In this document: one piece after another, positions 7,101 through 56,958 of the stretch
How positions within the stretch are numbered: the stretch's first letter is position 1
Layout: the number at the start of each line of letters is the position of its first letter
DNA from: Flagellimonas ochracea
Lineage (GTDB): Bacteria > Bacteroidota > Bacteroidia > Flavobacteriales > Flavobacteriaceae
DNA length: 64,000 nucleotides
Assembly (NCBI RefSeq): GCF_009903685.1
Contig: NZ_JAAABI010000001.1
Location: 310,001-374,000, forward strand
Direction of reading: 5' to 3'
Position numbers and translations under genes: made by a program
The notes under the pieces: generated by a model
What the model was told of the DNA's origin: nothing
The model's database searches: none
The model's input: the letters and a program-made list of their open reading frames with translations, nothing else

Positions 7101-8870
7101 TTAATGACCATAAATGTCATTATATAAATGAAGATACTTTTCCTTTACAATTTTTCGTCTAAGTTTCATGGTTGGGGTCAAATGACCATCATCAACGTTC
7201 CATACTTCGGGCGTAAGTCTAAACTGCTTTACTTTTTCCCATTTGGCAAAATCTTCGTTGGCTTTGTCCACTTCTTCCTGTATTCTGGCAATTACTTTTT
7301 CATTGAGAATAATGTCTGAGTTTTCACCAATGGTTACATTGTGTCGCTTGGCCCATTCGTGTAGGAACTCAAAATTGGGCTGTATCAAGGCAGCAGGCAT
7401 TTTTTCACCTTCACCTACAACCATGATCTGTTCAATGAAACGGGATTGCTTAAACCGGTTTTCCAACAACTGGGGCGCCACATATTTTCCACCAGAGGTT
7501 TTGAACATTTCTTTCTTACGATCCGTAATCCTTAGGAAACCATCGGCATCTATTTCCCCAATATCTCCGGTGTGGAAGTAATTATCGGTCATAACTTCTG
7601 CTGTTTTTTCTGGGTCTTTGTAGTAGCCCATCATCACATTGGGACCTTTACACAGAATTTCGCCGTCGTCTGCAATTTTTACCTCAACGTCGTCAATAAT
7701 TCGCCCTACAGAACCTATTTTCCAACCATGGTTACGCTGATCGTTGACCGAAATGACGGGAGAAGTTTCTGTAAGCCCATAGCCTTCCATAACGGGCATC
7801 CCGGCAGCGGCGAAAACACGGGCCAATCGAGGCTGAAGTGCGGCACTGCCCGATACCATTACGGACAAATTTCCACCCAGACCTTCTTGCCATTTGCTAA
7901 AGATGAGTTTGCGGGCAAGGCCCAACTGTTTTTCATACCACCACCCATTTTTTCCATAAGGCTCAAATTTCAATCCGAGCTCTACCGCCCAAAAGAACAA
8001 TTTTTTCTTCGCTCCCGTCAACAGTGCTCCTTTGGCTATTATCGCATCGTACACTTTTTCAAGCAGGCGAGGTACTACAGTCATCACATTGGGTTTTACC
8101 TCTTTAACATTATCACTGATTTTATCCAGGCCCTCGGCAAAATGAATCTCGATACCACAATATTGATAGAGGTATAAAATCATCCGCTCAAAAATGTGGC
8201 ACACAGGCAAAAAGCTCAACGCGGTACCTCCTGCTTCAAAGGGAACTCTTTTTTCACTTGCTATGACATTGGAAACAATATTTTTGTGTGATAGCATGAC
8301 ACCTTTTGGTTTTCCCGTGGTTCCGGAGGTATAAATAAGCGTTGCGAGGTCCTCTGGTCTTACGCCTTCCTTAGCTTTTTCCACCTCATTTTGGTTGGAG
8401 TTATCCACTCCTTTTTCCAGCACTTCGTTCCATGATTTGCAGTTATCCAGTGCATCAAAAGAATAAATGTCCTTTAAATGCTTAAGCTTGGAACTTATGG
8501 ACAATAGTTTATCTAAAACCTCACCACAGGATACAAAGCAATATTTCGCTTCAGAATGGTTCAGCACATATTCATAGTCATCCTCGGATATCGTTGGATA
8601 GATAGGAACGGTTTGGGCTCCGATTTGCAGGACTCCAATATCCACAACGTTCCATTCTGTTCGGTTGGTCATGGATATAATGGCAATCTTGTCGTTGGGT
8701 TTTACACCCATTCGCATCAGAGCACGGCTCACGGCATTGGCCCTGTCAATATATTCTTTGGTTGAGGTTGCTACCCATTTGCCGTTGTATTTGGTGACCA
8801 ACGACTTTTCCAGCGGAAGTTTTTCCAACTGGTAATAGGGGAAATCGAATAATCGGGTAACATTTTGCAT
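7101..8870 (-). CDS. Long-chain fatty acid--CoA ligase (AMP-forming)
   Basis: An adenylate-forming enzyme of 589 residues activating fatty acids to acyl-CoA with ATP and CoA. The AMP-binding P-loop LIYTSGTTGKPKG ends at about residue 190. GYGLTETSP, YFHTGDIGEID and DRKKEMFKTSGGKY follow in order, as expected for the long-chain (ACSL/FadD15-like) group with its C-terminal lid. It lies upstream of, and on the same strand as, the marR-fadNAE operon, with its own terminator between, so the two are neighbours but separate transcripts. It would supply the substrate for FadE. The 91 bp before its start show no clear TAnnTTTG box. Confidence 0.92.
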   Translation of the reverse strand: MQNVTRLFDFPYYQLEKLPLEKSLVTKYNGKWVATSTKEYIDRANAVSRALMRMGVKPNDKIAIISMTNRTEWNVVDIGVLQIGAQTVPIYPTISEDDYEYVLNHSEAKYCFVSCGEVLDKLLSISSKLKHLKDIYSFDALDNCKSWNEVLEKGVDNSNQNEVEKAKEGVRPEDLATLIYTSGTTGKPKGVMLSHKNIVSNVIASEKRVPFEAGGTALSFLPVCHIFERMILYLYQYCGIEIHFAEGLDKISDNVKEVKPNVMTVVPRLLEKVYDAIIAKGALLTGAKKKLFFWAVELGLKFEPYGKNGWWYEKQLGLARKLIFSKWQEGLGGNLSVMVSGSAALQPRLARVFAAAGMPVMEGYGLTETSPVISVNDQRNHGWKIGSVGRIIDDVEVKIADDGEILCKGPNVMMGYYKDPEKTAEVMTDNYFHTGDIGEIDADGFLRITDRKKEMFKTSGGKYVAPQLLENRFKQSRFIEQIMVVGEGEKMPAALIQPNFEFLHEWAKRHNVTIGENSDIILNEKVIARIQEEVDKANEDFAKWEKVKQFRLTPEVWNVDDGHLTPTMKLRRKIVKEKYLHLYNDIYGH

Positions 8871-33116: not shown

Positions 33117-33144
33117 AAAATCTTGGAAGTTTCGTTATCGTGTT

Positions 33145-33266
33145 CGTGTATGGTTAGTTGCGGATAAATCCGCGAGGATTTTCCGCTATATTGATTTTTA
33201 ATAAAGGTAGGAATTTTTCTTTTGCTTAACCAACAGTGCAATTAATTATACACGTTGTTGTATGCA
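33145..33266. repeat. Foldable intercassette element A (attC-like imperfect palindrome)
   Basis: The left arm CGTGTATGGTTAGTTGC (33145-33161) pairs with GCAATTAATTATACACG (33238-33254) over 17 positions, with three G-T wobbles and no mismatch. Inside is the tight hairpin GCGGAT-AA-ATCCGC (33160-33173). It ends at GTTGTATGCA (33257-33266), which has an exact inverted partner on the other side of the AlbA_2 gene. The element closely abuts that gene's stop codon. The outer left side lacks a TACAAC partner. Confidence 0.6.
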
Positions 33267-33271
33267 GTATT

Positions 33272-34189
33272 TTATTCAAACCCCTTTAGAGTTTTTCCTA
33301 AATCCGATTCCATTATATCTTCACCGTTCGGATAATAAAGTCGAATTTCTAATTTTATGCTTTCTACAATTTCGTAGAATTCATCTTTTCTAAAAGCAAA
33401 ATTTATTCTTACTGTATTTAATGATTCATTTGGATATATAGGTGTTTCTCCATTAATACTTACCTTGACTCTATTATTTTCAAGTCTCGTATAATTCATA
33501 TTTTTATTTGTACCATTCTTGTTTTCCAAAATTCTCATTCCTTTTGAGAAGTCTATGAAGTAGATATTTACTTTGTAAGTGTCCTCCATTTTTTCACCTT
33601 CATTATATACGTCAACTTCAAGGCTATATTCATATTCCTCACTTTCTTCATCGACTTCTAACTTTGAAATCAAAGATTGAGCTAATATTAATTTTGACTT
33701 AACTTTTCTGCCATAAAGTTGTCTTACTTCATATTCTTCCATTGGTACAGATTCGAAGTTAAATCGCTTGTAGTATTTTTTATCTCGAGCCATATGAGGT
33801 GCGTCAAGACTCGATGGTATTTGAACTACGTAAATTGTATTTGAGATAATTCCACTATTCCTGATTGGAAATATTTTTAAATCTGGTATATTTCTGTTTA
33901 CTGTAGAACTTATAATTTGCTCTAACCATTCTTTTGTGAACACATTTCCATCTATAAACGAAAAGTCATGGGCTTTGTGGTTTTTCTCTTCAATGCCATA
34001 AATTATTATTCCACCATCTGAATTGGCGAATGCTGACACATCTTTGGACACTTCTTTTTTTTGTCCATCTTTTTTAGAAAGTGCTCCAGCCGATTTGAAT
34101 TCAATATGTATAGATTCCTCTATCTCATTTTCAATAAAAGACTTGATTGTTTCAAAATCGTATGACTCTAATTTATGTAGTTCTTTCAT
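33272..34189 (-). CDS. AlbA_2 (Schlafen-like) domain protein, accessory gene in an inverted-repeat unit
   Basis: A 305-residue soluble protein. The N-terminal ~160 residues match the AlbA_2/divergent AAA-4 pattern: ESIHIEFKSA, then VSKDVSAFANSDGGIIIYGIEE, and the following YKRFNFESVPMEEYEVRQLY. This domain binds nucleic acid and is shared with Schlafen proteins. The C-terminal part is beta-rich and not recognised. It is more AT-rich than the housekeeping genes and stands alone between elements A and B, bounded by a perfect 10-bp inverted repeat (33257-33266 and 34211-34220). AlbA_2 proteins occur as regulators and in defence loci; neither role is shown here. Confidence 0.75.
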   Translation of the reverse strand: MKELHKLESYDFETIKSFIENEIEESIHIEFKSAGALSKKDGQKKEVSKDVSAFANSDGGIIIYGIEEKNHKAHDFSFIDGNVFTKEWLEQIISSTVNRNIPDLKIFPIRNSGIISNTIYVVQIPSSLDAPHMARDKKYYKRFNFESVPMEEYEVRQLYGRKVKSKLILAQSLISKLEVDEESEEYEYSLEVDVYNEGEKMEDTYKVNIYFIDFSKGMRILENKNGTNKNMNYTRLENNRVKVSINGETPIYPNESLNTVRINFAFRKDEFYEIVESIKLEIRLYYPNGEDIMESDLGKTLKGFE

Positions 34190-34210
34190 ATTTCAGGCAC
34201 GTGTCAATAT

Positions 34211-34348
34211 TGCATACAACGGTCTCGTATAACCGTCAGTTACGGGTTTATATGCGTTAATTTTCGGTTTGGCACTGACTTTAGCAATTCCGAGTGGATT
34301 CGGAGTAGTCGAATCCGCCGTAATTGCGATTATACATTGTTGTAAGCA
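34211..34348. repeat. Foldable intercassette element B (attC-like, with extrahelical base)
   Basis: TACAAC (34215-34220) pairs with GTTGTA (34339-34344). Inside these, GTATAACCGTCAGTTACGG (34227-34245) pairs with CCGTAATTGCGATTATAC (34318-34335) apart from one bulged base and two non-Watson-Crick positions. In the centre, GGATTCG/CGAATCC (34296-34302 with 34310-34316) forms a 7-bp hairpin. The left end belongs to the AlbA_2 unit, TGCATACAAC, and the right end to the next unit, GTTGTAAGCA. No coding sequence lies inside. Confidence 0.65.
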
Positions 34349-34353
34349 GTTTT

Positions 34354-34974
34354 TTACTGTCCATATATCGCTGCTAAAATCAAAGGAATGGTTATTAAAA
34401 CAGAAATAATAGCTGGTTTTATCCAACTTCTTTTTCTGTGCTGAAATTCTTTTCCGATAAATCTATTCCAGAAATATTCTGTCAAAATTCCTCCGCCAGC
34501 AATATTAAAAATCAAAGCAATATTACCTCCAATGTTCAATGAGTTCACAACCACAAGCGTAATAATCGTATATAAAATTCCAAAAATCAAAACTTGAATT
34601 CTCCCAGTTTGATTGTCGGTTTGCTTCATATTGTACATTAGTAAAACTGCTCCGAAAATCGTCGAGAATAATCCAGAAAACACCATAATTACTTTTTTTG
34701 AATGAAGTTCAGGCGCATTTGGGTCGTCCGTTATATTGTTTTTCTTTTTGTGTTCCTTGATAGTTTTTTCACGAGCAATCTCTTTTTTCTCTTTTTCTAT
34801 TTTGATTTCGCTTTCAACAGATTCCAATTCAGGTGTTTTTCCGTTTCTCTCTTTCAGAATATGGATTGAAGCTGCGACAGCTTGTTCGTTGTAACTTTTT
34901 TTATTTTCTAAAATATATTCTAATTCCGAGTCAGTTTTATGTTGGAACTTTTCAATAAATCTATTTTCGCTCAT
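34354..34974 (-). CDS. Four-helix membrane protein of unknown function in an inverted-repeat unit
   Basis: A 206-residue protein not recognised as a named family. The N-terminal ~95 residues are charged and helical with coiled-coil character (EIKIEKEKKEIAREKTIKEH). Four hydrophobic helices follow, from VIMVFSGLFSTIFGAVLLMY to IKPAIISVLITIPLILAAIYG, with a Lys/Arg-rich loop before the last. The short N-terminal section DSELEYILENKKSYNEQAVAASIHIL resembles a repeat seen in many Bacteroidota membrane proteins. It is AT-rich and flanked by the exact 10-bp pair at 34339-34348 and 35008-35017, hence a second cassette-like unit. Confidence 0.6.
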   Translation of the reverse strand: MSENRFIEKFQHKTDSELEYILENKKSYNEQAVAASIHILKERNGKTPELESVESEIKIEKEKKEIAREKTIKEHKKKNNITDDPNAPELHSKKVIMVFSGLFSTIFGAVLLMYNMKQTDNQTGRIQVLIFGILYTIITLVVVNSLNIGGNIALIFNIAGGGILTEYFWNRFIGKEFQHRKRSWIKPAIISVLITIPLILAAIYGQ

Positions 34975-35341
34975 TATTTGATTTGGTTCGATTTTGTTGG
35001 TTCAAATTGCTTACAACGTATTAAGATATGATTCTGTTTTAATGAATTTATCGACCGATAACGAAGTTAGTCGAAATGGATTACAATTTCAATAAGGGTT
35101 TTAGTTGGGGTGTTAAGGAGTTGTCAACAAGTGTTCAAGGGTGAAGGGTTAAAGGTGAAAGGTGAAAGGTGAAGGAAGAAGGGTGAAGGGGAAAGGGTGA
35201 AGGGTGAAGGGTGAAGGGGGATGTCAGAGGTATGAGATTGGAAGTTGGATAAAGGGCCCAATGTTTGGGTAATGAACGCCAATGGTAAAGAGCACGGTCA
35301 ACAACCTGCCCAAGGTTTTTCACACCTAACATCCAACTTTC
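34975..35341. other. Gene-free interval with the last inverted-repeat end and heptamer repeats
   Basis: This 367-bp stretch has no credible gene. It holds TGCTTACAAC (35008-35017), the right boundary of the second cassette-like unit, without a visible opposite arm further right. The repeat tract is at 35139-35215. The rest, to 35341, shows no promoter or RNA I can name. Confidence 0.6.
35139..35215. repeat. Eleven in-register heptamer repeats, consensus RGGTGAA
   Basis: Eleven consecutive 7-mers in perfect register: five exact GGGTGAA, three AGGTGAA and three one- or two-base variants. It is a purine-only-biased tract in non-coding DNA at the edge of the accessory region. On the opposite strand it gives a low-complexity frame that is not a gene. 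Confidence 0.9.
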
Positions 35342-35686
35342 TTAATCCGCAATCTGGAATGGAATGGCTTCTTCTTTTGAATCGTTTATCAAAAAAATGG
35401 TGCCTGCCGTCACCAATGTAATCCCTCCCGCCAAAGCCAAAAAGTTGGTTTTTCTTCGTTTTAAACTGCTTACTTTTTCCTTAGGGAAAGTTACAATGTT
35501 CTCGTTGGTTTTTAAGTAAATGTTGTCCTCGGTAGTTTTAGAACAAATGCCTTCAACGGTCTGTCCGTTATACAGGGTCAACTCGTAGGTCTTTCCATTT
35601 TTCATTTCCGAAATTTCCCTTGGTTTGTATACTTGACAGCTTTGTAACAGGAAGAAGGCAGCAAAAACTAATATTGTAATTCTCAT
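35342..35686 (-). CDS. Small lipoprotein of unknown function
   Basis: A 114-residue protein with a lipoprotein signal peptide: hydrophobic VFAAFFLLQSC, lipid-modified Cys about residue 17. The mature part has a beta-rich domain (KTYELTLYNGQTVEGICSKTTEDNIYLKTNENIVTFPKEKVSSLKRRK) resembling small LSm-like or translocation-type SH3 folds, and a C-terminal hydrophobic helix (NFLALAGGITLVTAGTIFLI). It is a single gene. No function can be assigned. Confidence 0.7.
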   Translation of the reverse strand: MRITILVFAAFFLLQSCQVYKPREISEMKNGKTYELTLYNGQTVEGICSKTTEDNIYLKTNENIVTFPKEKVSSLKRRKTNFLALAGGITLVTAGTIFLINDSKEEAIPFQIAD

Positions 35687-35886
35687 GAAGAGGTTTTAAA
35701 CAACCGCAGAACTAAACCAAAACAATTTTTATAATCTGCGACTTAATTATCTTCAACAATAATATATTTTTTTTAAATATTGCTTACAAGGATTATTATT
35801 TTGGTGAATGATCTCTTACATCGACGATATCTATGCCTATTTGTCCTGCCAGTTGTTCTCACTACAGCTAACTTTAATCAAATTAC

Positions 35887-54770: not shown

Positions 54771-54826
54771 AGGTTATTTAATTTTTGCAGAAAAAGATTA
54801 AACAGATTGATTACATTCGCATTGAA

Positions 54827-55017
54827 TCTTGGTTCGCACGATGTTTTCGTGCGATTAAAAGGGAATCCGGTGTAAATCCGGAGCTGTTCCCGCAACTGTA
54901 AGTTTATGCCAAACTTGATTTGGCACCTCCCTGGAGGGTGTTGTTTTCTTCAAGCCACTGTTATTGTATAATGGGAAGGCAAAGCAGCTTTAAACAAGTC
55001 AGGAGACCTGCCAAATT
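54827..55017 (+). ncRNA. Cobalamin (B12) riboswitch upstream of btuB
   Basis: The B12 box and its surrounding helices are clear: CGCACG/CGTGCG hairpin (P2-like), AAAAGGGAATCCGGTG followed by AAATCCGGAGCTG and CCCGCAACTGTAAG, then GCCACTG, GGGAAGGC and finally GTCAGGAGACCTGCC. The final segment lies 85 bp before the btuB start. After it, AAACTTT/AAAGTTT (about 55033-55053) may form the switching stem. It should repress the receptor when adenosylcobalamin is plentiful. Exact ends are approximate. Confidence 0.93.
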
Positions 55018-55098
55018 CAAACAAACAGTGTTAAACTTTCGGGATAAAAGTTTGCGTATGAACATCATACTATTCTCCCGTTTATTCTCGTAAACGAA

Positions 55099-56958
55099 AT
55101 GAACAAAAATTATTTAGGGGTATGTGCCGTCATTTTGGTGGTTAAGGGAATCTTTGCCCAGTCACAACAAGATTCTATTCCTTTGCATCAGTTGCAAGAA
55201 GTGGTGGTAAGCGATTCCAAGTTTGGGTTGAAACGTGAAAATTCTGGTAAAACGGTCATTAAAATCACTAGGGAGGAATTGGAACGTAATCAAGGAAGGA
55301 CGCTTGCAGAGATTATCAACACTAAAAGCGGTATTGAAATTGCTGGAAGTCGGGGTCGCGATGGCAACGTTTTGGGTGTTTTTACCCGCGGTGGTCGGGG
55401 TAGGCAAGCTTTGGTAATCATTGATGGCGTGCGGGTTTCGGACCCTTCCACATTTTCACAGGAATATGATCTAAGGTTACTCTCACCAGCTCTTATTGAG
55501 TCCATTGAAATCATAAAAGGCGCGGCCAGCACCTTATATGGGACGAATGCGGCCACAGCTGTGATCAACATCTCCACTAAAAAGAGCGCATCGCATAAAA
55601 TAGCTGCAAACATTCAATCCAGTATAGGGACCAATCAGACCGCAGAGGATCAAAACTACAATTTGGGGGCATTCAACAATATGGTTTCCGTAAATGGAAC
55701 CTTGAAAAAATTGACCTATAGCGTAGATTTCTCCAATCGATATAAAAGTGGGGTTTCTGCGGCAACGACTCCAGAAAATGAGGAAGATATTTTTTCAAAC
55801 TATAGTGCCAATGTGCGCTTGGGATATGAGTTTTCGCAGGATTTTGATATTTCTGTTTTTGGCAATCAAACCAAATTCAACAATGAATATGATGCTTCTT
55901 TTGCTGAGGCTCCCAACGTTTCCAATAGTGAACAAAAAAGAGTTGGATTGGCCTCTAATGTAGCATATGGAAAGGGCAGTATACATTTAAATGTGGCATT
56001 TTCGGAATATGGGACCGATACCAATGATACTTTTGGTGAAAGTACTTTTACGGGGGAGAATCTAGTGCTCGATGTATACAATAAATACATCTTTGGGGAT
56101 AGGTGGCATACCATTGTTGGCATCAATTATATAAAGGATAAAGCCGTATTTTCTGATCAGGCCGATTTTACCATTGTGGATCCGTATGCCAATTTAGTCT
56201 ATGTCTCTGATTTTGGGCTGAACCTGAACCTGGGAGGAAGATTGAACAATCACTCGGAATACGGCAATCATTTTGTTTATAATCTTAACCCTTCGTATAC
56301 ATTTTCTAATGAGAAAGGGTATTTAAAGGTGTTAGGGTCCTTTGCGACTTCCTACATCACTCCAAATTTGACCCAATTGTTCGGGGATTTTGGTGCCAAT
56401 CCCGATTTAGAACCTGAGGAAAACAGGACACTTGAAGGCGGAATTGAATTTTATACCAATAGCGGGTTGCGGATCAGTGCGGTCTATTTTGACAGAAACG
56501 AAAAGAACACTATTGGTTTTGACCAAGATTTTATGAGTATCAATGTTTCGGAAGAAATCAATGCCAATGGCTTGGAAATTGAAGCTTCATGGAAACCGAC
56601 AGCCAAGCTTTTTGTTGATGCCAATTATACGTTTACAGAAATAAATGGGGATAATGCCATTCGTATTCCCAAACACAAGGCCAATTTGTCTATTGGATAC
56701 CAGCTATGCGACAAAACGAATCTCAACTTCATCTATGCCTATACCGGAAGTCGATTAGATACTGACTTCAGCACATTTACCAATGTAACGTTGGATTCTT
56801 TTTCACTGCTTGGATTATCTATTGGCCATGAACTGATACCCGATAAGATGGATATTTTTTTAGGTGCTGAAAATTTGTTGAACGAGGAGTACATCGAAAT
56901 TTTAGGATTTACCACTTTAGGAAGAAACTTGCGTTTTGGGATGAACTTGAAACTTTAA
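55099..56958 (+). CDS. btuB: TonB-dependent vitamin B12 receptor
   Basis: A 619-residue outer-membrane receptor with a signal peptide (GVCAVILVVKGIFAQ). After the N-terminal HQLQEVVVSDSKFG TonB-box-like segment comes the plug (GKTVIKITREELERNQGRTLAEIIN, FTRGGRGRQALVIIDGVRVSDP, IESIEIIKGAASTLYGTNAATAVINI), then a 22-strand barrel ending in aromatic NLRFGMNLKL. The upstream cobalamin riboswitch and divergent btuFCD identify B12 or a corrinoid as the ligand. Its size is like E. coli BtuB (about 614). Confidence 0.93.
   Translation: MNKNYLGVCAVILVVKGIFAQSQQDSIPLHQLQEVVVSDSKFGLKRENSGKTVIKITREELERNQGRTLAEIINTKSGIEIAGSRGRDGNVLGVFTRGGRGRQALVIIDGVRVSDPSTFSQEYDLRLLSPALIESIEIIKGAASTLYGTNAATAVINISTKKSASHKIAANIQSSIGTNQTAEDQNYNLGAFNNMVSVNGTLKKLTYSVDFSNRYKSGVSAATTPENEEDIFSNYSANVRLGYEFSQDFDISVFGNQTKFNNEYDASFAEAPNVSNSEQKRVGLASNVAYGKGSIHLNVAFSEYGTDTNDTFGESTFTGENLVLDVYNKYIFGDRWHTIVGINYIKDKAVFSDQADFTIVDPYANLVYVSDFGLNLNLGGRLNNHSEYGNHFVYNLNPSYTFSNEKGYLKVLGSFATSYITPNLTQLFGDFGANPDLEPEENRTLEGGIEFYTNSGLRISAVYFDRNEKNTIGFDQDFMSINVSEEINANGLEIEASWKPTAKLFVDANYTFTEINGDNAIRIPKHKANLSIGYQLCDKTNLNFIYAYTGSRLDTDFSTFTNVTLDSFSLLGLSIGHELIPDKMDIFLGAENLLNEEYIEILGFTTLGRNLRFGMNLKL

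Follow-up and report, generated by a model that had tools for sequence, protein, structure and literature searches.

The 64,000-nt stretch of the Flagellimonas ochracea genome considered here (contig NZ_JAAABI010000001.1; G000:C11:310001-374000 in our catalogue, hereafter called the window and meant in its full length) carries two adjoining units that are, very probably, mobile cassettes belonging to a Bacteroidia system akin to integrons. Read along the coding strand, each of them follows the plan of a starting arm (R', i. e., GTT followed by the seven bases N7), a single gene, a complementary ending arm (R'', N7'-AAC), and then a sequence element that we call the body. The evidence comprises the anatomy of the units, the pairing of their arms, their uniform direction, covariation within the bodies, a recombinase encoded at the heads of arrays, and breakpoints observed between genomes. 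Matches to GTTGTANGCA on both strands of the window amount to exactly four 10-mers (0.31 expected; 0 of 100 shuffles reached four), and the stricter pattern GTT-N7-A ... C-N7'-AACA with complementary N7 yields exactly these two units from the whole window. An earlier, sequence-only reading of the window had placed the four 10-mers correctly and paired them exactly inside each unit. It had furthermore described the two genes as single, AT-rich, and on the same strand, which is accurate, the strand being the minus strand. It had seen one variable base per 10-mer; in the wider system, seven bases vary. It had not noticed that the intergenic element (34221-34338 plus arms) is a recurring sequence.

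Arm pairing and cassette anatomy

The window element was matched in 185 of 299 Flavobacteriaceae genomes (E <= 0.01), the best of the matches listed showing 85-97 % identity over 119-152 bp, and stretches taken from matching genomes contain it in many copies that face one direction and lie between short genes. Of the 128 elements in the main body family, 125 were usable. An exact 10-bp partner of R' was present within 3.5 kb downstream for 67 of 110 arms (after shuffling, 4.2 on average and 9 at most) and an exact partner of R'' upstream in 84 of 113 (shuffled mean 5.7, maximum 12), while partners in the wrong direction were found for 3 (R') and 4 (R'') of 125. Within a single element, R' and R'' agreed with each other in 3/125, near the random value of 1.1 %, so that arms match across the gene far more often than across the element. 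A first test of neighbouring pairs, confined to the main body family, had given perfect pairing in 18 of 69 pairs because undetected body families lie between elements of the main family; this weakness was overcome by searching for the arm itself and by a de novo scan for pairs. Outward base 8 matched in none of the 69 neighbouring pairs.

With the pattern GTT-N7-A ... C-N7'-AACA, the de novo scan of 1.08 Mb returned 422 pairs versus 2-6 in five controls, 47 of 51 stretches being positive and each of them on a single strand. Extended to 3.03 Mb, it returned 727 pairs, whereas controls with rotated, reversed, and identical N7 gave 4, 4, and 9; at least one pair was present in 122 of 190 stretches, and 1 pair lay on a minor strand. 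These counts do not represent genome-wide frequencies because the stretches were picked around element matches or recombinases. No strict pair turned up in the 483 kb of 34 recombinase loci from other phyla or in the 121 kb of 29 same-genus loci, and a relaxed 10-mer scan was uninformative (320 versus 213).

The 694 cassettes collected in this manner have hypervariable arms with 194 distinct N7, and 46 of their R' arms fit GTTRRRY, the GTT and AAC triplets themselves being fixed by the search design. The distance from AAC to the next GTT is 121-131 nt in 238 of 257 cases and 172-198 nt in 15, and three cassettes of Rufibacter follow the same plan with a compact form of 59 nt where measurable (seen, for example, with the same arms and stem plan at L137 16057-17699). 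The longest open reading frame (ORF) runs in the sense direction in 396 of 414 cassettes (opposite in 5, none in 13), exactly one sense ORF of at least 50 aa is present in 575 of the 694, the first possible start codon follows GTT at a median of 25 nt (694 cassettes), and the GC content is near 30 %. Arrays can be long, with 67 pairs (63 starts) in 100 kb of genome G255 and 50 in 100 kb of G068. Repetition within arrays was also noticed: one cassette block occurs twice in L083 (G101:C1:80000-99999), 6.8 kb apart and 100 % identical over at least 1.67 kb, and L074 contains near-identical cassettes (93-99 %) at array-sense positions 8467, 9027, and 11138. Pfam gave no match for 8 of 10 cassette proteins tested, and PADLOC matched 0 of 10. 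Distant searches of a plasmid collection with the window element and one G255 element returned nothing of note, and the exact 54-base core is absent from viral contigs.

Predicted folding of the bodies

The bodies examined (244 elements) form 54 clusters, or body families, of quite different sequence, which have a common skeleton. Folded with the cassette's own arms attached, the bottom strand (i. e., the one opposite the coding strand) is predicted to be more stable than the top strand in 50 of 54 families, with mean folding energies of -29.7 (bottom), -26.0 (top), and -11.9 kcal/mol (mononucleotide shuffles); setting the arms to the cassette's own N7 has an equal effect on both strands. The same preference is predicted for both window elements. 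Where the coding strand has conserved A.C oppositions, the opposite strand has G.T pairs instead; at one of these places, 43 of 44 sequences show G.T. In an alignment of 43 of the 54 body families plus the window, with long bodies and those crossing stretch borders left out, a 16-bp stem is paired in 672 of 696 cells with 148 two-sided changes, as compared to 28-45 % for slid versions, a score that favours the stem as its structure was derived from the same alignment. RNAalifold applied to the coding strand proposed 12 pairs, 10 of them with compensatory changes. By these in silico measures, the bodies would fold as attC-type hairpins with a preference for the bottom strand, in the sense in which attC sites are defined in the accessible part of PMC8946536. 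Rfam showed no attC family match in the window, L079, or L080, the only match being a riboswitch elsewhere.

Breakpoints between genomes

Among the 694 cassettes, 95 between-genome pairs have a gene in common, and for the count of mobility each of 22 gene families was represented by a single pair of >=88 % identity. N7 is identical in 21 of the 22 (random 1.1 %), and the borders are sharp: identity rises from 0.65 over the five bases that precede GTT to 0.99 from GTT onward, and at the other end it falls from 0.99 up to AAC to 0.76 past it. The downstream body is common to 10 of 22 families (8 % of random pairs; p 3e-6), the upstream body to 3 (p 0.14, not above chance), and neither body to 9. 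Since the arms accompany the gene in 21 of 22 families and the downstream body does so in 10, crossover may occur at either arm. For 11 pairs of at least 90 % identity with neither body in common (at a cut of 0.8, with one at 0.79), an R'-like motif follows the body on both sides in 7 and not in 4; in the former, different elements therefore directly follow AAC. In different genomes, the same gene (about 84-93 % nucleotide identity) carries differing N7 that are each perfectly paired (L075:13484, L102:9555, L087:3539, and L149:14536, array-sense), and both arms therefore change together.

One of the window's own cassettes shows such breakpoints as well. The cassette of the 206-aa protein recurs with the same N7 in G028 (92.3 % nucleotide identity over 35033-34321) and twice in G141 (83.6 % over 35018-34331), which belong to two other genera, in each case with another downstream body and with flanks differing from those of the window. 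Relatives of the AlbA_2 protein in the 299 genomes are distant and number 4 besides itself. A common breakpoint at the 10-mers, as anticipated by the sequence-only reading, is thus seen across genomes, including the window's unit of the putative membrane protein, and its one-gene units with covarying ends are supported by the pair counts given above. Its further suggestion that the gene and its ends, not the intergenic element, are inherited as a unit is sound for the arms and must be amended for the downstream body, which travels with the gene in a part of the families.

The recombinase at the heads of arrays

A recombinase profile matched 99 times in the 190 stretches, with scores of at least 300 bits for 65 matches. 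The first GTT of a strict cassette lies 23-320 bp from 32 of these 65; among the 32 array-head recombinases, 27 point with the array and 5 against it, and 27 are 340-410 aa long. Many of them, such as L134:10001-11128, have an N-terminal region of about 100 aa (strands and helices, no Pfam match) in front of the SAM-like and catalytic domains. One of the 34 lower-scoring recombinases, L123, is near an array. Recombinase sequence alone found at least 590 loci, and the best 80 of these contain 46 strict pairs versus 0 in the control, in genera such as Winogradskyella, Seonamhaeicola, Algoriphagus, and Cyclobacterium. In 19 of the 32 array heads, the interval from the recombinase to the first GTT contains an attI-like palindrome that scores more than 2 above the shuffled mean.

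Each of eight array-bearing genomes searched contains the recombinase (8/8), and among 100 genomes, both element and recombinase were present in 52, the element only in 11, the recombinase only in 20, and neither in 17 (p 0.003; recombinase at E 1e-60, element counted as this body family only). The genome of the window contains one such recombinase (C11:178376-179269), which is located beside an array of its own, about 164 kb from the window cassettes. No array-type recombinase was found in the 12 kb surrounding the latter, in agreement with the earlier statement that the locus lacks an integrase; the accompanying idea of an enzyme supplied in trans gains a candidate of the right family in the same genome, whose action on the window cassettes would be at a distance.

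A tree of 115 rows places each of the 32 array-head recombinases within a group of 64 rows that is Bacteroidota almost throughout (SH-aLRT 97), and 12 IntI from other classes of the phylum form a separate group (SH-aLRT 100), the order of the deep forks not being fixed by the tree. Eight of nine loci labelled Xer lie elsewhere in a group of their own, and L289 falls among the array-type recombinases; five rows were left out, among them the low-scoring L123. In the alignment, 42 columns are occupied in more than 70 % of the 12 IntI and in fewer than 10 % of the array recombinases, which lack the additional, IntI-specific domain I2 (patch III). The cut-off of TIGR02249 (integron integrase) is passed in 0 of 100 Flavobacteriaceae genomes. 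Across the phylum, 70 of 247 genomes have a true IntI that exceeds the cut-off, and among the matches listed one is from the same class. The best NCBIfam model for 4 of 5 recombinases is NF040815 (XerA_Arch), with one over its cut-off, and TIGR02249 is among the best profile matches and the best for the remaining one. An AlphaFold model (mean pLDDT 83, pTM 0.51) has XerA and IntI4 (2a3v) as its first Foldseek matches, with TM-scores of just 0.41-0.57.

Proposed mechanism and alternative explanations

We infer a mechanism in which a cassette would become free and thereby join its two arms; such a cassette starts with GTT-N7 and a brief leader, continues with a single gene that leaves hardly any space for a promoter, and closes with N7'-AAC and the hairpin body. 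The bottom strand would then fold into an attC-like hairpin, in which the arms form a perfect stem of 10 bp, followed by a small bulge of asymmetric shape, the covarying stem of about 16 bp, and a tip that varies. The cut at the GTT/AAC triplets would presumably be made by a Xer-like tyrosine recombinase whose gene lies at array heads elsewhere in the genome, and the folded strand would recombine either with the double-stranded site beside the recombinase gene or with other sites of an array. Because only GTT/AAC would have to match, N7 could differ between partners and stay with its gene; on this proposal, the seven bases next to the cut are free to mismatch because a single strand is exchanged on the folded bottom strand. 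The window would thus contain a two-cassette outlier array that has no recombinase and is served in trans. Crossover at R' would carry the gene together with its downstream body, and crossover at R'' as well might account for the exchanged bodies. The absence of the I2 insert fits cleavage at either arm without proving it. It is conceivable, and we put it forward tentatively, that Bacteroidia possess a second, separately evolved mode of gene capture via folded single-stranded DNA, in which Xer-like recombinases without I2 cut the hairpin at either arm, the unit being the gene with its two variable arms and the bodies being exchanged.

The closest alternative is a true integron (IntI/attC) with a merely diverged IntI, that is, sedentary chromosomal integrons whose taxon-specific attC sites were missed by surveys, which we consider rather unlikely. 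The likeness is substantial: as in integrons such as the Vibrio superintegron, single-gene cassettes form one-directional arrays with a recombination site behind each gene, a cassette's own arms pair together and not with those of its neighbours, bottom-strand folding is predicted, and some arrays are headed by a recombinase while others, CALIN-like, have none. The appearance of TIGR02249 among the best profile matches (best for 1/5), the placement of IntI4 beside XerA by Foldseek, and the unordered deep forks of the tree, with which common descent with IntI would be compatible, point the same way. Against this stand the lack of any IntI over the cut-off in the 100 family genomes, the near absence of the 42 IntI columns and the separation into two groups, and the extra N-terminal domain of about 100 aa in many array recombinases. 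Furthermore, attC core sites have the consensus RYYYAAC / GTTRRRY, to which the arms do not conform, with just 46 of 694 R' arms fitting GTTRRRY and GTT here being followed by seven variable bases. The body length is nearly fixed, and bodies are often swapped while gene and arms stay together. The arrays themselves are same-directed, mostly single-gene, and, judging from their short leaders, probably without promoters. The system operates in the manner of an integron, yet two of the features tested set it apart from integrons as defined.

Two further explanations fare much worse. Short non-autonomous transposons with terminal inverted repeats (MITE-like, where MITE stands for miniature inverted-repeat transposable element), moved by a transposase in trans, would have perfect inverted ends around one gene and were the alternative offered by the sequence-only reading; we regard them as highly improbable, given ends without fixed sequence (194 N7 in 694 cassettes), head-to-tail arrays of one direction with common bodies, and a tyrosine recombinase at array heads. 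Instead of serving recombination, the repeats might act as transcription terminators or as RNA structures in operons of one gene, a view suggested by predicted hairpins that start 5 nt after the stop codon of both window genes. It is scarcely credible, since the outer arms pair across the gene and not across the hairpin, the better-folding strand is the non-coding one, units with identical arms recur in different flanks across genera, and no Rfam family other than the riboswitch was matched in the three stretches named above.

Several observations nevertheless weigh against the preferred interpretation of mobile cassettes served by an integron-like recombinase. Recombination itself was not observed. 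An empty site precise to the base, looked for in relatives as the sequence-only reading had proposed, was found at the window locus in none of the 29 same-genus loci around the neighbour gene, one of which (L042) has some 75 bp and no array between the two flanking genes, while the second neighbour stands complete on the other side in L032, L040, and L053. An exact partner was lacking for 43 of 110 R' arms, and the body fails to follow the gene in 12 of 22 families, contrary to what a simple integron predicts. As for the enzyme, 33 of the 65 high-scoring recombinases have no strict array start within 400 bp; 10 of these have cassettes farther off and 23 have none in the stretch, some of the latter being on short contigs. 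An attI-like palindrome stands out in no more than 19 of the 32 array heads and does not do so in the window's own genome, and elements and recombinase are only loosely linked at the genome level. For the largest array, that of G255, the 100-kb stretch contains no recombinase of this kind, the one of this genome being more than 500 kb away, and one pair lies in L166, a locus titled Spirochaetota that was counted with the Bacteroidota set.

Relation to other systems and significance

With Xer/dif systems, the recombinases have in common that they are closest to XerA-like and IntI proteins by profile and fold; they differ in being distinct from the family's other Xer-like genes and in having dedicated cassette arrays. 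PMC4792948 names the integration of CTXphi by XerCD as the one reaction resembling cassette recombination. GInts, islands that carry several tyrosine recombinases (PMC5385486), are comparable in placing such enzymes beside cargo. The IntI insertion, according to the available portion of PMC8138268, is essential for integron function and not fully conserved in an integron-like subgroup treated there.

No description of the present system was found in openly licensed literature. For Bacteroidetes proper, section 3.1 of IntegronFinder 2.0 names no more than integrase-alone elements (In0), which were known before, and one complete integron, reported since in Salinibacter ruber; reviews list Bacteroidota among the integron-bearing phyla in the excerpts available, and the taxon-specific attC models of Ghaly 2021 include, in the text accessible, no Bacteroidota. 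Here, 185 of 299 Flavobacteriaceae genomes carry at least one body family, and the system would constitute an extensive pool of mobile genes whose functions are unknown. In the accessible part of Escudero et al. 2016 (PMC4792948), the I2 domain of IntI is described as impeding a second cleavage, and the question is raised how folded sites were selected before I2 existed. In the present system, covarying and predicted folded sites go together with recombinases that have no I2, and breakpoints occur at both arms of common cassettes, as could be anticipated with an unblocked second cleavage. Perhaps the integron-like system is an independent, I2-less branch; if so, such a separately evolved system would be the type of intermediate for want of which the origin of integrons seems paradoxical.

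Features of the window array and its surroundings

Features of the two-cassette array, in coding-strand order (positions in the window)
Feature	Position	Strand	Remarks
Pre-cassette sequence	35018..35035	-	terminal part similar to the 3' end of a body
R' arm, start of first cassette	35008..35017	-	sense GTTGTAAGCA; N7 = GTAAGCA
Cassette gene, 206-aa protein ('membrane protein' in the sequence-only reading)	34354..34974	-	no Pfam match
R'' arm, end of first cassette	34339..34348	-	sense TGCTTACAAC; 5 nt past stop codon
Element body 1, 118 nt	34221..34338	-	member of the largest body family; hairpin predicted, with the bottom strand the more stable one
R' arm, start of second cassette	34211..34220	-	sense GTTGTATGCA; N7 = GTATGCA
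Cassette gene, 305-aa SLFN_AlbA_2-domain protein	33272..34189	-	Pfam 1.1e-16
R'' arm, end of second cassette	33257..33266	-	sense TGCATACAAC
Element body 2, 117 nt	33140..33256	-	different body family; last element of array
Array end	33128..33139	-	sense G|ATAACG at expected GTT

The pre-cassette sequence may be a truncated remnant of an element body or the insertion site, and the motif at the array end perhaps combines the G of the cassette with chromosomal sequence or is a decayed R'. According to Pfam, the array is flanked by an NTP_transf_4 protein and a radical-SAM UPF0004 protein, the latter presumably MtaB. To the right of the array, an ORF of 114 aa on the minus strand (35342-35686) is preceded by a decayed R'-like CTTGTAAGCA (sense, 35779-35790) and may represent a third, decayed cassette. 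A low-complexity tandem of GGGTGAAGGG-like units adjoins the array (35123-35231). Farther off, a cobalamin riboswitch (Rfam RF00174) is located at 54813-55029, upstream of a 619-aa ORF at 55099.

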